DNA from: Betaproteobacteria bacterium SCN2
Lineage (GTDB): Bacteria; Pseudomonadota; Gammaproteobacteria; Burkholderiales; Thiobacillaceae
Reading direction: 5' to 3'
DNA length: 64,000 nucleotides
Assembly (NCBI GenBank): GCA_008923285.1
Contig: WBSG01000001.1
Span: 1-64,000 of the forward strand
Below, in pieces: positions 8,801 through 64,000 of the stretch. Positions within the stretch are counted from its first letter, which is position 1. Each line of letters starts with the position of its first letter. The notes under the pieces are model-generated. The model did not search any database. It saw only the letters and a program-made list of their open reading frames with translations, and was not told the DNA's origin. The translations under genes and the position numbers were made by a program.

Positions 8801-11193
8801 ACCGAGCCCTGCTTCAATTTCATTCCCTGAAGTCGCCGCTGGCGCAGCGTCTGATCGTCGCTGTCGTCCTGTTCAGCGTGGTGATCACGCTGGCGATGAC
8901 GGCGTTCCAGGTCCATCAGGAATACCAGCGCAGCCTGCTCAGGCTGGAAGCGCAGCTGCGGCAGATCGAGGCCGTCCACCTGCCCACGCTGTCGCGTTCC
9001 CTGTGGGCGACAAACAAGGAGGGCGTGCAGCTGGAACTGGAGGGCATGGTGCGCGAGCCCAATATCGTCCATGCCGCGGTGCACGAGGCCGGCCGGCCCT
9101 ATGCGCAGGCGGGGGGACGTGACGCGCAAAGCTCCATCGAGCGCAGCTATCCGCTCAAGTACGAATATCGGGGGCGGGTGCGCGAGATCGGCACGCTGAG
9201 TGTCGTTGCCACGGTCGACGACATCCGGCGCGAATTGCGGCGCGATGCGGTCGGCGTCCTCACGAGCAATGCCCTGCGCATCTTCCTGGTGGCGGTTTTC
9301 ATATTCCTGCTGTTTCACCACCTCATTACCCGCCATCTTGCGAACATCACCGAGCAGCTGGGCGAGGCCGACCCGGTTTCAGGCTTCATGCCCCTGAAGC
9401 TGGCGCGCAGCCCCCGCGCGCGCGCGGACGAACTCGACGTGCTGGTCAAATCGGCCAACGACATGCAGCAAAAGGCCTTCGCCGCGCTCAATGCGCAGCG
9501 CGACAGCGAGGAGCGGGTGCGCCTGCTGCTGGACTCGACCGCGGAGGCGATTATCGGCGTCGATATCAGGGGCGTCTGCACCTTCGCCAACCCGGCCTGC
9601 CTGCGCATGCTCGGCTATGCCAGCGAGGCCGACCTGATCGGCAAGCGTATCCACGACCTGATCCATCATACCTATCCTGACGGCAGGCCCTATCCGATCG
9701 AGGAATGCACCGTGCGCAATGCCACGCTCGCCGGCCGGCCGGCCCACAGCAAGGAAGAAGTGCACTGGCGCGCCGACGGCAGCAGTTTCCCGGTCGAGTA
9801 CTGGGCGCACCCGATGTACCGGGACGGCGAACTGGTGGGTGCGGTGGTAACCTTCATCGACATCAGCGAGCAGAAGCAGGCGGAGGCGATGCTGCATCAC
9901 CTGGCCTACTATGACACGTTGACCGGGCTGCCCAACCGGGCGCTGTTCAACGATCGCCTGCATCGTGCGCTGGCCGATGCCAGGCGCCACGGCCGCTACG
10001 TCGCGCTGATGCTGCTGGACCTCGACCATTTCAAGATCATCAACGACACCATGGGACACGAGACCGGCGACAAACTGCTGCACGAGATCGGCGCGCGCCT
10101 GCAGAAAAGCGTGCGCGAAGGCGATACGGTGTCGCGCCTCGGCGGCGACGAATTCGCGTTGATCTTCCCCGACATCGGCGAAGTCCGCCATGTGGTGTCG
10201 CTCGCGCAGAACGTGCTGTCGCAGTTCGCCGCACCGGTGATCATCGGCGGGCGCGAGATATTCAGCGAGGCCAGCATCGGCGTGGCGCTGTTCCCGCAGG
10301 ATACCGAGGATGCCGATTCCCTCTTCAGGTTCGCCGACTCGGCGATGTACCACGCCAAGGAAAGCGGGCGCAACAACTTCCAGTTCTATTCCGACGAGAT
10401 GACCGCCAGCGTGCAGGCGCGCCTGCAGATGGAAACCGATCTGCGCCGCGCACTCGAGAAGAACGAATTCTTCCTCAATTTCCAGCCCCAGGTGGACACC
10501 AGAACCCGGCGCATCACCGGCGCCGAGGCCTTGCTGCGCTGGCGCGACCAGGCCGGCAACCTGGTCGCGCCAGCACGCTTCATACCGCTCGCGGAGGAGA
10601 CCGGGCTCATCGTGCCGATCGGCAAATGGGTGCTGGAAACCGCCTGCGCACAGGCCAGAAAATGGCTCGATGCCGGGCATGCCGGCATGATCGTCTCGGT
10701 CAATGTCGCTTCGCGCCAGTTTCGCGATCCGCAGTTCCTGGATGTGGTCAGGCAGGCGATTGCCGCCGCCGGCATTCCGCCGCGTACGCTCGAACTCGAA
10801 ATAACCGAGGGCATCCTGCTCGAGCACAGCGAAGACACGCTGCAGACTCTCGATGAGCTCAAGGTCATCGGCGTGACCCTCGCGATCGACGATTTCGGCA
10901 CCGGCTATTCCTCGCTCGCCTACCTCAAGCGTTTTCCCATCGACCGCCTCAAGATCGACCAGTCGTTCGTGCGCGACATTGCCAGCGACAGCGAGGACCT
11001 GGCCATCGTCAGGGCAATCGTCGCGCTGTCGCAGGCGCTCTATCTCGACGTGATCGCGGAAGGGGTGGAAACCGCGGAGCAACTGGCGATGCTGCAGCGA
11101 GAAGGCTGCGACGCCTGCCAGGGCTATTATTTTTCGCGGCCGATGGATGCCGACAGCTTCCTGCACTGGCTGGATTCCGCGCAGCTTGCATGA
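8797..11193 (+). CDS. Membrane-bound PAS-GGDEF-EAL cyclic-di-GMP enzyme
   Basis: The 798-residue protein has a transmembrane helix (17-37), a periplasmic region (about 40-155), a second helix (about 160-178), a HAMP-like linker, a PAS domain (about 237-360), a GGDEF domain (365-530) and an EAL domain (545-790). GGDEF is intact at 449-453, and an RxxD inhibition site (REGD, 440-443) lies five residues before it. EAL is intact (EAL 577-579, with later N-V-A-S, DDFGTGYSS and K-I-D-Q-S segments). Both synthesis and hydrolysis of c-di-GMP are therefore possible. It is translationally coupled to the upstream binding protein, which may deliver the periplasmic signal. Confidence 0.94.
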   Translation: MNRALLQFHSLKSPLAQRLIVAVVLFSVVITLAMTAFQVHQEYQRSLLRLEAQLRQIEAVHLPTLSRSLWATNKEGVQLELEGMVREPNIVHAAVHEAGRPYAQAGGRDAQSSIERSYPLKYEYRGRVREIGTLSVVATVDDIRRELRRDAVGVLTSNALRIFLVAVFIFLLFHHLITRHLANITEQLGEADPVSGFMPLKLARSPRARADELDVLVKSANDMQQKAFAALNAQRDSEERVRLLLDSTAEAIIGVDIRGVCTFANPACLRMLGYASEADLIGKRIHDLIHHTYPDGRPYPIEECTVRNATLAGRPAHSKEEVHWRADGSSFPVEYWAHPMYRDGELVGAVVTFIDISEQKQAEAMLHHLAYYDTLTGLPNRALFNDRLHRALADARRHGRYVALMLLDLDHFKIINDTMGHETGDKLLHEIGARLQKSVREGDTVSRLGGDEFALIFPDIGEVRHVVSLAQNVLSQFAAPVIIGGREIFSEASIGVALFPQDTEDADSLFRFADSAMYHAKESGRNNFQFYSDEMTASVQARLQMETDLRRALEKNEFFLNFQPQVDTRTRRITGAEALLRWRDQAGNLVAPARFIPLAEETGLIVPIGKWVLETACAQARKWLDAGHAGMIVSVNVASRQFRDPQFLDVVRQAIAAAGIPPRTLELEITEGILLEHSEDTLQTLDELKVIGVTLAIDDFGTGYSSLAYLKRFPIDRLKIDQSFVRDIASDSEDLAIVRAIVALSQALYLDVIAEGVETAEQLAMLQREGCDACQGYYFSRPMDADSFLHWLDSAQLA

Positions 11194-58245: not shown

Positions 58246-58836
58246 TCAGCTTGCCCGGGCTCGGGCGATCTGCTCGACGATGGGCTTGAGCGCCCCGAGG
58301 GCGAGGGGTTTCGAGTACACCGGAATGCCCTGCGGCAGCCCCCCGCGCTCCCCGATTTCCTGCTCGCTGAGTCCGGTCACGACAATGACTGCCGGAACCT
58401 TGATTTCTTCGCTTTGGGTCAGCTTCCGGATCATTTCGAATCCGTCCATGCCCGGCATGGACAAGTCGGCGATGATGAGGTCCGGCGCGTACTTTCCGGC
58501 CATGACCAGGCCCTCGAAACCATCTTGAGCCAGGTAGAGATTGATCGGCAGGTTCCACTCGGCGAATTTCAGCTTGTACAACTCGCGCTGGACGGGTTCA
58601 TCCTCCACGATCAATACGCTGTGCGAGTGGGTGACGTGCTCCCTTGCGACAGCGGTTTTCTGGCCGGCGAGCATCGCTTCCACCGCTTCGCTGGGGATGC
58701 GTCGGTGCCCGCCGGCTGTCTTCCAGGCCGGCAACACGCCCGACTCCACCCAGATCTGAATGGTCGTGACCGAGACCCCCAGCACCTTGGCGGCTTCCCG
58801 GGAGGTATAGAAATTGAATTTAGGCTCGATTGCCAT
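58246..58836 (-). CDS. Response regulator with N-terminal MerR/excisionase-type HTH and C-terminal receiver
   Basis: The 196-residue protein begins with a helix-turn-helix of the BldC/MerR-excisionase type (FYTSREAAKVLGVSVTTIQI, then the wing AGGHRRIPSEAV, residues 8-55). A receiver domain follows (72-192, Asp124 in LIIADLSMPGMDG, Lys in VYSKPLALG). The order DNA-binding first, receiver second, is the reverse of most response regulators, and this HTH type is rare in them. It is first gene of the minus-strand kinase operon and faces the divergent GTPase/Roadblock operon across an AT-rich region, which it probably controls. Confidence 0.9.
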   Translation of the reverse strand: MAIEPKFNFYTSREAAKVLGVSVTTIQIWVESGVLPAWKTAGGHRRIPSEAVEAMLAGQKTAVAREHVTHSHSVLIVEDEPVQRELYKLKFAEWNLPINLYLAQDGFEGLVMAGKYAPDLIIADLSMPGMDGFEMIRKLTQSEEIKVPAVIVVTGLSEQEIGERGGLPQGIPVYSKPLALGALKPIVEQIARARAS

Positions 58837-59100
58837 GCATAAACTCGATGGTATTTTTTACATTTTTAACATTTATATGACGGTTTGTCTAAAGGTATAT
58901 TCTGCTTATGCCCAAAAAACAGCATATTTGTTATTTTAAGTAAAACATATTTGTTGTAATTTGCATTTTTAATGTTTATGTGTAAGATGAGCTCAAGACG
59001 ACACTGTCAGTGTATTTTTTGCCGCGGCCGGGCGACAGGGCACTCCTGCCCGGGAAGACTTGTTTGAAGCGTATTGAAGACCAGTGAGGGGAACAAGAAG
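58837..59100. promoter_or_regulatory. AT-rich divergent control region with two repeat families
   Basis: This 264-base gap is strikingly AT-rich for the window. It holds CATATTTGTT at 58923-58932 and again at 58946-58955 (23 bases apart). CATTTTTAACATTTATATG at 58861-58879 has a near copy, CATTTTTAATGTTTATGTG, at 58964-58982. These are plausible operator pairs for the adjacent HTH-receiver regulator, serving both the kinase operon and the GTPase/Roadblock operon. The plus-strand gene has GAGGGG before its ATG. Confidence 0.55.
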
Positions 59101-60198
59101 ATGAAAGTGTGCCTCATGCAAATGGATCAGCGGACACGGGACTCCATGTCCCTGGTTTTGAAACATCGCACCGACAATGCAGTCGTCCTGGCGGATGAGG
59201 AGTCTGCGGATGTCGCGGTCATGGACCTCGACCACGAAAATTCACTGCAGGCCTATCAATCCATGCGCGCCCGCCGGCCAGCGTTCCGCGCGATCGGCCT
59301 GACCTCGAGGGGCGACCTCGTGCATGAGGGCATCGAGATCATTCAGAAACCCATATCGGCCGGCCGCCTCTTGGAGGCCATCCTCAGGATTTCGCAAGGC
59401 GCCGTGCGGATTCCGGGCATCAAGGCCGCAGGCGCTGCGTCATCCCTGAGCGCGCGCATCGGCAGTTCGCGGAGGCGTCCGGAGACCACTGCCGCCTCGC
59501 AGGGGCAAATGTCCTTCGATCCCGCCTCGTATCTGCTGGGAACCATACTCGAGGCCGCAGCCGAGGCGGAAAGGCGGGATGCGGTGGCCATCGTCAGTTT
59601 TTACGGCGATCGGGTGATTCTCCTGGACAAGACCGAAAACCTCATCAAGACCAATCTGACCTCCTCGCAGGCGCGGGCGTTTTCGCTGACGGCGATCGAC
59701 GCGGACGATGTCGGCGGTCTGGCGTCGACGGTCGGACTGCAGCGGCCTGCCGTGGAGTACATGGAGCGGGACCAGGCGAAATTCCGCTACGCCGGCAGAA
59801 CCTACGACGTGCCCATGGAAACCTTCATGTGGAAGCTGGGGGCGATGACGAGCCGCGGGCGCCTGCCTCTCGGCCTCGGTGCGGCTGACCGGGTGTACCT
59901 GCGCCGCTGGCCCAACCTTACCGGCTTCTCCTATACCGACAACGACATGCGCATCATTGCCTACTGGATACGTCAGGCCGCGAGTCTGCGTGAAATCGCC
60001 GAGGCCCTCGGCGTTTCCGAGCAAGAGGTGTTCAGCGTGTATAGCGCCGCGCATGCGGCAGGGCTGGCAGGCAAGGCGTGCCGGGAAGCCGACGGCCTCT
60101 GGGAGGCGCCCGCCGTGGAGGAGCACAGACAGCGTGGCCTGCTGTCCTCGATCATGCGTCGGCTCGTGCAGCGCAAACCGATGGAAGCGGCGGCATGA
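59101..60198 (+). CDS. Receiver-like/winged-helix protein heading the GTPase-Roadblock operon
   Basis: The 365-residue protein has an N-terminal domain (1-95) resembling a receiver, with Asp42 in VAVMDLDHE and Lys83 in IIQKPIS but without the acidic pair after strand 1. A linker leads to a middle domain (about 138-260, FDPASYLLGTILEAAAEAER and VSFYGDRVILLDKTENL). The C-terminal HTH-like part (about 278-325) contains MRIIAYWIRQAASLREIAEA followed by LGVSEQEVFSVY. ATG 59101 is preferred over an in-frame TTG at 59074 because of GAGGGG upstream. It overlaps the GTPase start (ATGA). I do not know a named family. Confidence 0.75.
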   Translation: MKVCLMQMDQRTRDSMSLVLKHRTDNAVVLADEESADVAVMDLDHENSLQAYQSMRARRPAFRAIGLTSRGDLVHEGIEIIQKPISAGRLLEAILRISQGAVRIPGIKAAGAASSLSARIGSSRRRPETTAASQGQMSFDPASYLLGTILEAAAEAERRDAVAIVSFYGDRVILLDKTENLIKTNLTSSQARAFSLTAIDADDVGGLASTVGLQRPAVEYMERDQAKFRYAGRTYDVPMETFMWKLGAMTSRGRLPLGLGAADRVYLRRWPNLTGFSYTDNDMRIIAYWIRQAASLREIAEALGVSEQEVFSVYSAAHAAGLAGKACREADGLWEAPAVEEHRQRGLLSSIMRRLVQRKPMEAAA

Positions 60199-60731
60199 GC
60201 GTATACAAGATCGTGTTTGCCGGTCCGGTCGGCGCGGGCAAGACGACGTCCATCGCCTCAATCAGCGATATCGAGCCGTTCACCACGGAAGAATTTGCCA
60301 CCGACGAGGTTCAGAGCCTCAAGGAAAAAACCACGGTAGCGATGGACTACGGCCTGATGGAGCTGGCGGGCGGCGGCCACCTGCATCTGTATGGAGTACC
60401 GGGCCAGGTGCGCTTCGACTTCATGTGGGAAATCATCGTCGAAGGCGGCATCGGCCTTGTCCTGCTGCTGAACAATGAGAATGAAAGTCCGCTTGATGAG
60501 CTGGATTTCTACCTGGACAGTTTCAAGAGCTATATCGACCGCACCGGGTTGGCGATCGGCGTGACGCGCATGCGGCCGGGCAAGGGGCCGGGCCTCGACG
60601 ACTATGCAGAGCGCCTGTCCAGTCGCGGCATGAAGGCGCCGATATTCGAGGTTGACGGACGCAAGCCAGAGGATGTCATCACGCTGGTGCAGGCTCTGCT
60701 CTACACGCTCGACCCTGGCCTGAAACACTGA
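60195..60731 (+). CDS. Small Ras-like GTPase (COG2229/MglA-like)
   Basis: A 178-residue P-loop GTPase: G1 AGPVGAGKTTSIASISD (9-25), effector region with EFATDEVQSLKEKTTVAMDY, G3-like YGVPGQVRFDFMWEI (Pro-Gly-Gln, with the usual Asp replaced), and a G4-like GVTRMRPG in place of T/NKxD. This is the bacterial SRPRB-like GTPase class that works with Roadblock/LC7 proteins, two of which are in this operon. It is coupled to the upstream gene (ATGA). The unusual G4 leaves guanine specificity uncertain. Confidence 0.88.
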   Translation: MSVYKIVFAGPVGAGKTTSIASISDIEPFTTEEFATDEVQSLKEKTTVAMDYGLMELAGGGHLHLYGVPGQVRFDFMWEIIVEGGIGLVLLLNNENESPLDELDFYLDSFKSYIDRTGLAIGVTRMRPGKGPGLDDYAERLSSRGMKAPIFEVDGRKPEDVITLVQALLYTLDPGLKH

Positions 60732-60751: not shown

Positions 60752-62086
60752 ATGCCTTCCATCGCACCCATCCTCAGCCTGCGCGATTTCGGCGTCGCCT
60801 TTGGCGACCGCGTCGTGCTCAACGCGGTCAACATGGAACTGGCCGCGCCCGGCATGATCGTGGTCATGGGCCCCGTGGGTACCGGGAAATCCACCCTGCT
60901 GCGCACGATTGCCGGGATCAATCATGCCGTTCCCTCGTTCCGGAGCTGGGGCGAGGCGCGCTACCGGAATGCGCCGCTGGGTGCGGACGGCGGCGTGGCC
61001 CTGGTGGCGCAGAATGCGCGGCTGCTGATGGCGAGCGTGATGGAAAACATCGTCAACGACCTGCCGCTGCGCAATCAGCTAACGCTGGCGGCAAAACGCG
61101 AGGCCGCCGTCAGGCTGCTTGCCGAGGCAGGCCTGAATGATCTGCAGGACAACATGGACAGGCCCGTCGTCGAACTGCCGCTGGCGGTGCAGCGCCATCT
61201 GGCGGTCGCGCGCACCGCCGCGGCAGAGCCGGGGTTGCTGTGCGTGGATGAACCCACTGCCAATCTGGATTGGGCTGACAGTTTGCCCTTGCTGCGTTTT
61301 CTGAGGGAACAGGGCGAAAAGCGCGGCGTGCTGGTGGTTTCGCACAACCGGCAGGATGCCTTTGAACTTGGCGGTCAGACGGCGCTGCTGGCAGGCGGCA
61401 GCATACAAGGCTGCGCGCCAACGGCGGCGTTCTTCGGCAAACCCGCGCCCGGGGTGGTGGCCGACTTCGTGCGCACAGGCTCCTGCGCGCTGCCATCACC
61501 CGGCGCCAGGCCGGAGGAAGTGGACGAGTCCATGCGCCCCTTTCTGCCGACACTGCCGGAAGCCGCGAGCAATTACGTGCGCGAATCGCTGGGGCCGCGC
61601 GGTTTCCTGTGGCTGAAGAAAGGCTTGCTGGCGGGTACGCCCAGGCCAGGCATCGTGCAGGACATCGAGTACGACCTCGATGCGCTGAAGCGCGTTGGCG
61701 TGACGACTCTGGTTTCCCTCACGACCCGGCCGGTCGATCCTGAGGCACTGGAGAGCCGCGGCATTCAGGGCTTGTGGATGCCGGTCAAGGACATGCATGC
61801 GCCGGGGGTCGAGGAGGCGGAGCAGATGTGCCGCAAGGTGTCCGGCCTGCTGTCGCAGGGTCATGTGGTTGCCTATCACTGCCGCGCAGGGCTTGGCCGT
61901 ACCGGCACCATGCTCGCCTCGCATCTCATCATGGAGGGCAGGTCGGCCCTCGACGCATTGGAATCGGTTCGCCGCATCGAGCCCCGCTGGGTTCAATCCG
62001 ACGAGCAGGTAAGGTTTCTAGAGCGATTCTCGGAATCCCTTTCGAGTCGCCGGGAAATGAACGGCCATTTGGCCACTGTTAATTGA
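60752..62086 (+). CDS. ABC-type ATPase fused to a Cys-dependent dual-specificity phosphatase
   Basis: The 444-residue protein has an ABC ATPase domain (about 1-235): Walker A GPVGTGKSTLL (40-50), Q-loop region VALVAQNARLL, Walker B LLCVDEPTANLD with catalytic Glu167, and switch His198 in VVSHN. The LSGGQ signature is replaced by VELPLAVQRHLAVA. A linker leads to a phosphatase domain (about 275-430) with candidate general acid Asp347 and the P-loop HCRAGLGRTG (Cys377, Arg383). No transmembrane partner is encoded nearby. ATG 60752 is used (GTG 60749 is adjacent). Phosphatase substrate and ATPase role are unknown. Confidence 0.9.
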   Translation: MPSIAPILSLRDFGVAFGDRVVLNAVNMELAAPGMIVVMGPVGTGKSTLLRTIAGINHAVPSFRSWGEARYRNAPLGADGGVALVAQNARLLMASVMENIVNDLPLRNQLTLAAKREAAVRLLAEAGLNDLQDNMDRPVVELPLAVQRHLAVARTAAAEPGLLCVDEPTANLDWADSLPLLRFLREQGEKRGVLVVSHNRQDAFELGGQTALLAGGSIQGCAPTAAFFGKPAPGVVADFVRTGSCALPSPGARPEEVDESMRPFLPTLPEAASNYVRESLGPRGFLWLKKGLLAGTPRPGIVQDIEYDLDALKRVGVTTLVSLTTRPVDPEALESRGIQGLWMPVKDMHAPGVEEAEQMCRKVSGLLSQGHVVAYHCRAGLGRTGTMLASHLIMEGRSALDALESVRRIEPRWVQSDEQVRFLERFSESLSSRREMNGHLATVN

Positions 62087-62107: not shown

Positions 62108-62512
62108 ATGTCTCTCGATCAAGCACTCAACGGTGCAATCACCTCCATTCCCGAATGCGTGGCCGGCGGCTATGTGGATCTGGCCTCGGGCATGCTGCTC
62201 GGCGTGAAAACCGTGGATTCGCACCCCCAGGAAGTGATGGACCTGCTCGCGGCAGCGACCTCCGACCTGTTCCAGGGTAACAATGTGTCGGTGATTGAAA
62301 ACATTTTCAAGAAAGCGCGCGGCCACGTCCAGGATGCGCACCACTATTTCCAGGAAATCATCGTCAACAGCGACAACCTGATCCACGTTTTTCTGCGTTC
62401 CAAGAAGACCGAGGAGCAAGTGGCCTGCTTCGTGTGCCGCAAGAGCGCCAACCTCGGCATGGTGCTGACCAAGGCGCGCCAGGCGATGCCTTCACTTGAA
62501 GCGGCCGTGTAA
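62108..62512 (+). CDS. Roadblock/LC7-like protein 1
   Basis: A 134-residue protein with the alternating helix/strand layout of Roadblock/LC7 proteins (GGYVDLASGMLLGVKTVD; FQEIIVNSDNLIHVFLRSKK; VACFVCRKSANLGMVLTKAR). Such proteins dimerise and act as activators or platforms for small MglA-type GTPases. An AAAGGAATCAAAG ribosome site precedes the ATG. It shares the S-A-N-L-G-M-x-L ending with the next gene, suggesting an old duplication. Confidence 0.8.
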   Translation: MSLDQALNGAITSIPECVAGGYVDLASGMLLGVKTVDSHPQEVMDLLAAATSDLFQGNNVSVIENIFKKARGHVQDAHHYFQEIIVNSDNLIHVFLRSKKTEEQVACFVCRKSANLGMVLTKARQAMPSLEAAV

Positions 62513-62587: not shown

Positions 62588-62971
62588 GTGAGTGACAGCA
62601 ACGCAGTGGCTACTGCCGTTACCCCGATACTGAAGAAGCTGAACTCGACATCGGCCGACATCCAGGCTTCCGCGGTGATGTCCAGGGATGGGCACAGCCT
62701 TGCCACGGTGCTGGGCGATGACATCAACAACGTCAGGCTCGGCGCGATGTGCGCGACGCTCCTGTCGCTGGGGGAAAAGGCCTCGGTCGAACTGAAGCGG
62801 GGCAAGCTCAGGCAGATTCTGATCCATGGCGAGGAGGGCTATGTGCTGTTGCTGCGCATCGGCGAAAAGGCCGTACTCGCGGTGGTTTCCAAGCCGAGCG
62901 CCAATCTGGGCATGATGCTGGTCGAGGCGCGGCGGACCTCCGGCGAGATAGCCGCCCTCGGCGTTGTATGA
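62588..62971 (+). CDS. Roadblock/LC7 protein 2
   Basis: A 127-residue protein with a GTG start after AAGGAAGTTGCA. It follows the Roadblock/MglB outline: IQASAVMSRDGHSLATVLGD, then RLGAMCATLLSLGEKASVEL, QILIHGEEGYVLLLRIGEKA and KPSANLGMMLVEARR. It is the likely GTPase-regulating partner of the COG2229-type GTPase in this operon, perhaps as a heterodimer with the preceding protein. A GC-rich hairpin lies between the two genes (62529-62544). Confidence 0.88.
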   Translation: MSDSNAVATAVTPILKKLNSTSADIQASAVMSRDGHSLATVLGDDINNVRLGAMCATLLSLGEKASVELKRGKLRQILIHGEEGYVLLLRIGEKAVLAVVSKPSANLGMMLVEARRTSGEIAALGVV

Positions 62972-63177: not shown

Positions 63178-63549
63178 ATGGTCGATAGCCTGATCGACTG
63201 CGACGAAGGCCGCCGGCTTGGCTGCCGCACCTTTTGCTGCCGTCTGCTGGTCAGGCTGGCAGAAGACGAGCGCGAGCCCGCCATGAATGGTTCGGTGCCC
63301 AAGGGCTTCGTCGACAAAGGGCCGGACGGCTTGTGCGTCCACCTCGATCGCTGCACGCATCGCTGTGGCATCTGGGAAAAACGTCCGCGCGTTTGCCGCG
63401 AATATGACTGCAACCATGATTATCTGCTGCAGGCGGCAGTCCGCGTGGGCGTAACGAACATCGTGCAATTGGCCAAGGATGCGCAGGCTCTGCGCATCGC
63501 CATCGAGAACTGCATCAAGGTTCCCGGCTGTGCCGGGGATGTGGATTAG
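63178..63549 (+). CDS. YkgJ-family cysteine-cluster protein
   Basis: A 123-residue protein with clustered cysteines: LGCRTFCCRLL near the N-terminus, DGLCVHLDRCTHRCGIWEKR with PRVCREYDC in the middle. This is the CxxxCC...C...C pattern of YkgJ/UPF0153 proteins, thought to bind Zn2+ or an Fe-S cluster. The C-terminal part is longer than in the smallest members. It lies between the small membrane protein and a ferredoxin reductase, in the same direction with short gaps. Confidence 0.85.
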   Translation: MVDSLIDCDEGRRLGCRTFCCRLLVRLAEDEREPAMNGSVPKGFVDKGPDGLCVHLDRCTHRCGIWEKRPRVCREYDCNHDYLLQAAVRVGVTNIVQLAKDAQALRIAIENCIKVPGCAGDVD

Positions 63550-63562
63550 GGAATTCGGAGAC

Positions 63563-64000
63563 ATGCCTGAGATCAAGCACCAGGGGAAAACCTACAACTG
63601 CCGCCAGGGGGAATCGGTTCTCGATGCCTTCCTGCGCCAGGGCGTCAACCTGCCTTTCTCCTGCCGCAGCGGGGTTTGCCAGGTCTGTCTGCAGCGCGCG
63701 ACCGCGGGCGAGCTGCCGGAAGGTGCGCAGAAGGGATTGAAGGACAGCCTGGCGGCAAAGAATTACTTCCTTCCCTGCGTTTGCCGCCCAGAGCAGGATC
63801 TGGAGTTTGTGCCGCCTGCCGAAGAGGATCTCTACTTCAGCGCTTTGGTCGCGGAGAAGGAGCCGCTGGCAAAGGATGTTTATCGCATCCGGCTCGAGCC
63901 TGCCCTGCAGGTGAATTACCGCTCCGGCCAATTCATCAACCTGCGCCGCCCCGATGGCATCAGCCGCAGCTACTCGCTGGCCAGCGTTCCCGGCGAGGAC
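63563..64000 (+). CDS. Ferredoxin-linked flavin oxidoreductase (N-terminal part, cut by window end)
   Basis: The visible 146 residues start with a plant-type [2Fe-2S] ferredoxin domain. Its ligands are in FSCRSGVCQVCLQ (C-x4-C-x2-C), with a fourth Cys in YFLPCVCRPEQD. A ferredoxin-NADP-reductase-type FAD domain begins near residue 92, with YRSGQFINLRR and the FAD-binding RSYSLAS. This order is that of oxygenase reductases and CDP-6-deoxyglucoseen reductase-like proteins. Start ATG 63563 has GGAG upstream. The NAD-binding part lies beyond the window, so electron acceptor and pathway cannot be told. Confidence 0.9.
   Translation, partial: MPEIKHQGKTYNCRQGESVLDAFLRQGVNLPFSCRSGVCQVCLQRATAGELPEGAQKGLKDSLAAKNYFLPCVCRPEQDLEFVPPAEEDLYFSALVAEKEPLAKDVYRIRLEPALQVNYRSGQFINLRRPDGISRSYSLASVPGED

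Follow-up and report, generated by a model that had tools for sequence, protein, structure and literature searches.

The gene at positions 60752–62086 of the forward strand encodes an ABC-type nucleotide-binding domain fused to a dual-specificity phosphatase (DSP), a protein that we will call ABC-DSP. The fusion is real and is conserved across distant proteobacteria. From the sequences compared here, we think it somewhat probable that ABC-DSP serves a Group 3 MglA module as a phosphatase subunit that binds ATP and has no part in transport, with the product of the next gene, RB134, as its partner or substrate; its catalysis, ATP gating, substrate and physiological output are what we infer from this. 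"The window" below is the whole stretch of DNA that was analysed (64,000 nucleotides).

The fused gene and its two domains

A single uninterrupted ORF of 444 codons, beginning with ATG at 60752, specifies a 444-aa chain with an ABC-type nucleotide-binding domain (residues ~8–240), a linker (~241–280) and a DSP domain (~281–426). Pfam places ABC_tran at residues 23–170 (E 3.9e-13) and phosphatase profiles of DSP type over residues ~282–426, the best of them being Tc-R-P DSP at residues 294–396 (E 4e-21); PTP-SAK (E 1e-15) and DSPc (E 7e-9) also match, and there is a weak similarity to PTPlike_phytase (E 0.02). An earlier note on this DNA had described the two domains as joined in one chain, which the ORF and the Pfam domains bear out. 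The residues that it quoted are correct as well: Walker A (GPVGTGKST, residues 40–48; 60869–60895), the Walker B motif DEPT (residues 166–169; 61247–61258) with D166 and the catalytic-type Glu167, the switch (H-loop) His198 (61343–61345), and Cys377 and Arg383 of the phosphatase loop HCRAGLGRTGT (residues 376–386; 61877–61909), all on the forward strand. This loop and Asp347 (61790–61792, +), the presumed general acid, are the HCX5R(S/T) loop and acidic residue that characterize dual-specificity/cysteine phosphatases. The N-terminal half possesses the Walker A, Q-loop, Walker B with its Glu and switch His of ABC proteins and lacks LSGGQ; the note was right about this loss, residues 142–148 (61175–61195, +) reading LPLAVQR, with LPLAV at 142–146. 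An AlphaFold model of the fusion was of limited quality (pLDDT 63, pTM 0.50, from an alignment of five sequences).

The same fused chain is encoded at 12 loci, in four Thiobacillus and eight other beta/gamma-proteobacterial species, and because of this it is no chance join; an assembly or frameshift artefact is ruled out. The Thiobacillus fusions are 83, 74 and 68% identical to the window protein, that of Thiohalophilus thiocyanatoxydans 54%, and that of an Ectothiorhodospiraceae MAG 48%. Wider sampling adds fusions in the genomes G371, G257, G225, G284, G426 and G605, with identity down to ~35%, the one in G426 having been found by tblastn and the DSP profile and not by the full-length search. 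Among 369 genomes, a profile of the DSP part retrieved eight fused copies at E ≤3e-33 and stand-alone DSPs at E 2e-21 and weaker, with nothing between. Since fused and stand-alone copies are split in this way, the objection foreseen in the earlier note, that the two domains might be separate genes in all relatives, fails; they are fused in every close relative.

Invariant in all 12 aligned fusions are G40, G45, K46, S47, Q87, D166, E167, H198 and D347, and likewise H376, C377, R383 and T384. The signature positions vary freely, with LSGGQ or its SGG core in none of the 12; in an alignment of ten fusions with 35 ABC proteins from the window's own and related genomes, the core is missing from all ten and retained by nearly all of the comparators. 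Between the window and locus L038, the ABC part has a dN/dS of ~0.22 and the DSP part one of ~0.09. ABC-DSP is under purifying selection, strongest on the DSP part.

Because LSGGQ is missing, the classical two-site ATP sandwich is unlikely to form in ABC-DSP. Slow or partner-completed ATP hydrolysis could still take place despite the degenerate signature. An active mechano-ATPase, dimerising and hydrolysing ATP through a non-canonical signature with the phosphatase as a secondary function, would account for the constancy of Walker A, the Q-loop, the Walker B Glu and the switch His; we consider it improbable, given the absence of the SGG core throughout and the DSP being the more constrained domain. 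The simplest reading would be that the ABC domain controls or assembles the phosphatase in a nucleotide-dependent manner.

Among NCBIfam profiles, those of importer ATPases give the ABC domain its highest scores, with PstB at the top, and PstB is also among its best structural matches; a small ABC tree does not settle descent from PstB. The score against PstB (TIGR00972) is 104.5 bits, far below the cut-off of 343.2, and unlike the PstB-type ATPases ABC-DSP has no LSGGQ, is fused to a phosphatase and is without a permease. Its neighbours in the window include no permease, as the earlier note had also said, and no other membrane-transport gene; the relatives' operons that were read have no permease either. 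The importer scores are thus what speaks for ABC-DSP energising a transporter whose permease lies elsewhere, an explanation to which we give very little credence: the low PstB score stands against it, and on the lost signature, the permease-free operons and the linkage to roadblock proteins a transporter subunit was rejected.

The DSP part shares the HCxxGxGRTG loop and the invariant Asp with atypical DSPs (DUSP23-like; PF22785, PF22784), and its best solved-structure matches are the DSP family protein 25xa and human DUSP23. Those enzymes mostly stand alone, whereas this copy is always found behind an ABC domain. For the Tc-R-P class of polymorphic-toxin DSPs the domain score passes (76 versus 27), and the neighbours are signalling genes in place of a toxin/immunity context. 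A role in anti-phage defence was rejected, PADLOC yielding no more than weak P-loop matches for ABC-DSP, and so was a phage or plasmid gene, with no match found in viral contigs or in plasmids. Atypical DSP relatives can use non-protein substrates, which, with the weak phytase-like similarity, raises a second explanation, namely a module for sensing a metabolite, in which the DSP would have a nucleotide, inositol or lipid phosphate as its substrate. We regard this as quite unlikely, since the structures matched best are 25xa and DUSP23, the genes linked to it encode protein-signalling components, and a PP2C-type protein phosphatase is among the alternatives in this genomic slot (see below).

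The operon and its Group 3 MglA character

The operon runs, all on the forward strand, in the order receiver/HTH-like protein, Ras-like GTPase, ABC-DSP, RB134 and MglB-like roadblock protein, with gaps of −4, 20, 21 and 75 bp, those of 20 and 21 bp lying on either side of ABC-DSP. The first gene (59098–60198) encodes a 366-aa protein with a conserved C-terminus whose HTH matches are weak (Pfam E 0.002), its receiver-like N-terminal part resting on the description in PMC4316618. The second (60195–60731) encodes an MglA-family small GTPase with the Group 3 features GVPGQ (its G3 motif), TTVAMDYG and TRM instead of NKxD (PMC4316618). RB134, a 134-aa protein of roadblock fold judging by structure prediction, which accompanies ABC-DSP throughout, is encoded at 62108–62512, and the MglB-like Roadblock/LC7 protein (PF03259, E 3.4e-15) at 62588–62971.

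Group 3 MglA systems were defined in beta- and gamma-proteobacteria as consisting of a protein with receiver-like and winged-helix parts, an MglA whose G4 is atypical, and one or two MglB (Wuichet & Sogaard-Andersen 2014, PMC4316618). The GTPases of the ABC-DSP operons carry TTVAMDYG, G(T/V/S)PGQ, TRM/TRL and DxR, agreeing with the Group 3 pattern of a G2 Thr-Thr, G3 GTPGQ, an atypical G4 and a DxR G5, and the receiver/winged-helix partner and the one or two MglB are found as well. Judged from motifs and gene order, the operon matches the Group 3 type, a context that the earlier note missed. It has the same receiver/HTH-like protein, unusual-G4 MglA and two roadblock proteins as the published systems, which are without an ABC-DSP component and in whose description the text mentions no phosphatase (PMC4316618). 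This operon type is thus already known, and ABC-DSP is its new component as far as the open-access PMC literature goes, where we found no description of such an ABC-phosphatase fusion; the earlier note knew of no characterised protein so built. The actinobacterial conservons (CvnABCD, Group 2 MglA) resemble the operon in being multi-protein signalling operons with an MglA-family small GTPase and an MglB-type roadblock protein. They possess the histidine kinase CvnA and CvnC, neither of which is present here, and lack ABC-DSP.

A kinase that might supply the phosphate was not identified in the operon. Divergent from it, and beside PAS-type hybrid kinases, lies a gene for a MerR-type HTH joined to a receiver domain (58246–58836, −). 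Downstream, the extended operon conserves a CxxCxxCC metal-binding protein (63178–63549, +), which is followed by the start of a fusion of ferredoxin, FAD/NAD reductase and truncated globin (63479–64000, +), whose ORF continues in L129, to ~65128 of the contig; both genes are found downstream in several lineages. The ferredoxin-reductase-globin fusion was also seen at L038:10856-12424 and L052:3668-5257. The globin of L040 is encoded by its own gene (9756–10388) between RB134 and MglB; Thiohalophilus has the globin alone, at that position. A redox, oxygen or nitric oxide input to the module is possible from this gene content.

RB134 and the phosphatases of the sister clade

No Pfam match was found for RB134, a PDB sequence match to roadblock proteins was not shown, and hhalign was marginal. 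The fold is clear by prediction: in a model with pLDDT 80 the elements follow the order alpha-beta-beta-alpha-alpha-beta-beta-beta-alpha, and each of the top 50 PDB matches is a chain from a roadblock protein or complex, e.g., MglB and Ragulator.

ABC-DSP and RB134 occur together in eight of 369 gammaproteobacterial species and apart in none (Fisher p 1e-16, with phylogeny ignored, most species in the co-occurrence tests belonging to different families). A further species, G605, carries the pair, and among same-genus genomes the same three of nine hold both. In each locus read, RB134 follows ABC-DSP directly and in the same orientation. Across 66 pairs, sequence identity in the one protein correlates with that in the other (r 0.81), as is expected for co-inherited genes and without thereby implying an interaction. 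The pair also stands without a detectable GTPase nearby in L053, L054 and L103, and because of this we take it to be the core unit. The earlier note had proposed the neighbouring GTPase, receiver proteins or a kinase as the target; the GTPase does belong to the same system, and the tightest partner is RB134 instead of the GTPase or the receiver proteins. That ABC-DSP always travels with RB134 suggests that it would be the built-in phosphatase of the switch and not part of a transporter. Invariant, RB134-specific residues able to carry phosphate include Y22, T35, S38, H39 and T51. In G225, a gene judged from its sequence to encode a PilT-like twitching ATPase (L053:3627-4664) lies ~2.5 kb from the pair.

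Matches to the RB134 profile in the 369 species fell into two tiers, one of eight genomes at E <1e-59 and the other of a related protein, RB135, at E ~1e-11 to 1e-20. RB135 is found in 15 other genomes, with a second copy in G421, and forms a clade separate from RB134, a long, fully supported branch lying between them. Beside most RB135 genes is a two-domain protein of ~505–530 aa with a calcineurin-like phosphoesterase (PF12850, PF00149; PDB relative 3rqz) as its C-terminal half, seen for example at L085:6116-7630(−), L086, L087, L088, L089 and L091. It is present at full length in 13 of the 369 genomes, all of them with RB135 (13 of the 16 RB135 genomes), and the eight ABC-DSP genomes all lack it (exclusivity, Fisher p 9e-5, phylogeny ignored). 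Its N-terminal domain has no Pfam or PDB match; kinase-like motifs there (K54, E77, LDxxLSN, DDD) have no profile support. Like ABC-DSP, this protein has two domains, ends in a phosphatase and is tied to a roadblock protein of a related clade, whereas the folds of the two are unrelated. In G237 a PP2C-type phosphatase gene (L082:3268-5061) adjoins two tandem RB135 genes. A conserved protein of ~524 aa with no Pfam match was also noted near RB135 (L090:4850-6421, L111, L116, L117); it is present in G299 and G238, where the calcineurin-like protein is absent.

Sister systems thus seem to have unrelated phosphatases in the equivalent slot. The recurrence of unrelated phosphatase folds at one genomic position is the best evidence that what the system needs is phosphatase activity, rather than an ABC function. 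Alternatively, the exclusivity may reflect lineage history and not functional replacement, RB134 and ABC-DSP merely moving together as a cassette. Such an explanation, which we hold to be unlikely, would fit the separate RB134 and RB135 clades with the long branch between them and a patchy distribution like that of a mobile cassette, but the calcineurin-like protein co-occurs with RB135 even where the two are on different contigs (G237, G344, G092).

Proposed role and significance

Returning to a phosphatase subunit of the module, we surmise that ABC-DSP would be a soluble two-domain signalling enzyme of the Ras-like GTPase/roadblock system. The C-terminal DSP would dephosphorylate a protein of the module, most likely RB134, with MglA or the receiver/HTH protein as the next candidates; RB134 could instead be a scaffold rather than the substrate. 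The N-terminal domain would bind ATP without running the classical transporter cycle, and may be an ATP-dependent switch for regulating or assembling the phosphatase. The equivalent place in sister systems would be taken by the unrelated two-domain protein with a calcineurin-like half. The output may be gene expression, through the HTH protein, and/or type IV pilus or surface behaviour. An example of the latter is the bee symbiont Snodgrassella, whose type IV pilus-dependent motility changed when an orphan mglB of a Group 3 system was mutated (PMC11112851). More tentatively, and as a possibility that we would not yet call probable, the transport-free ABC domain may be an ATP (energy-state) gate on a phosphatase that resets roadblock phosphorylation and so sets the Ras-like switch, in a slot that one or more unrelated phosphatases fill elsewhere.

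That distinct roadblock clades are strictly paired with distinct, unrelated phosphatases leads to the prediction that RB134 and RB135, or their GTPase, undergo regulation by phosphorylation. The importance of Group 3 systems lies in their presence in Neisseria, Xanthomonas and Stenotrophomonas (PMC4316618) as well as in Snodgrassella (PMC11112851). If the proposed role is true, protein dephosphorylation would be added to GTPase/roadblock systems so far described as GTPase, roadblock and receiver/HTH proteins only, and an ABC-type domain would gain a role in controlling a phosphatase.
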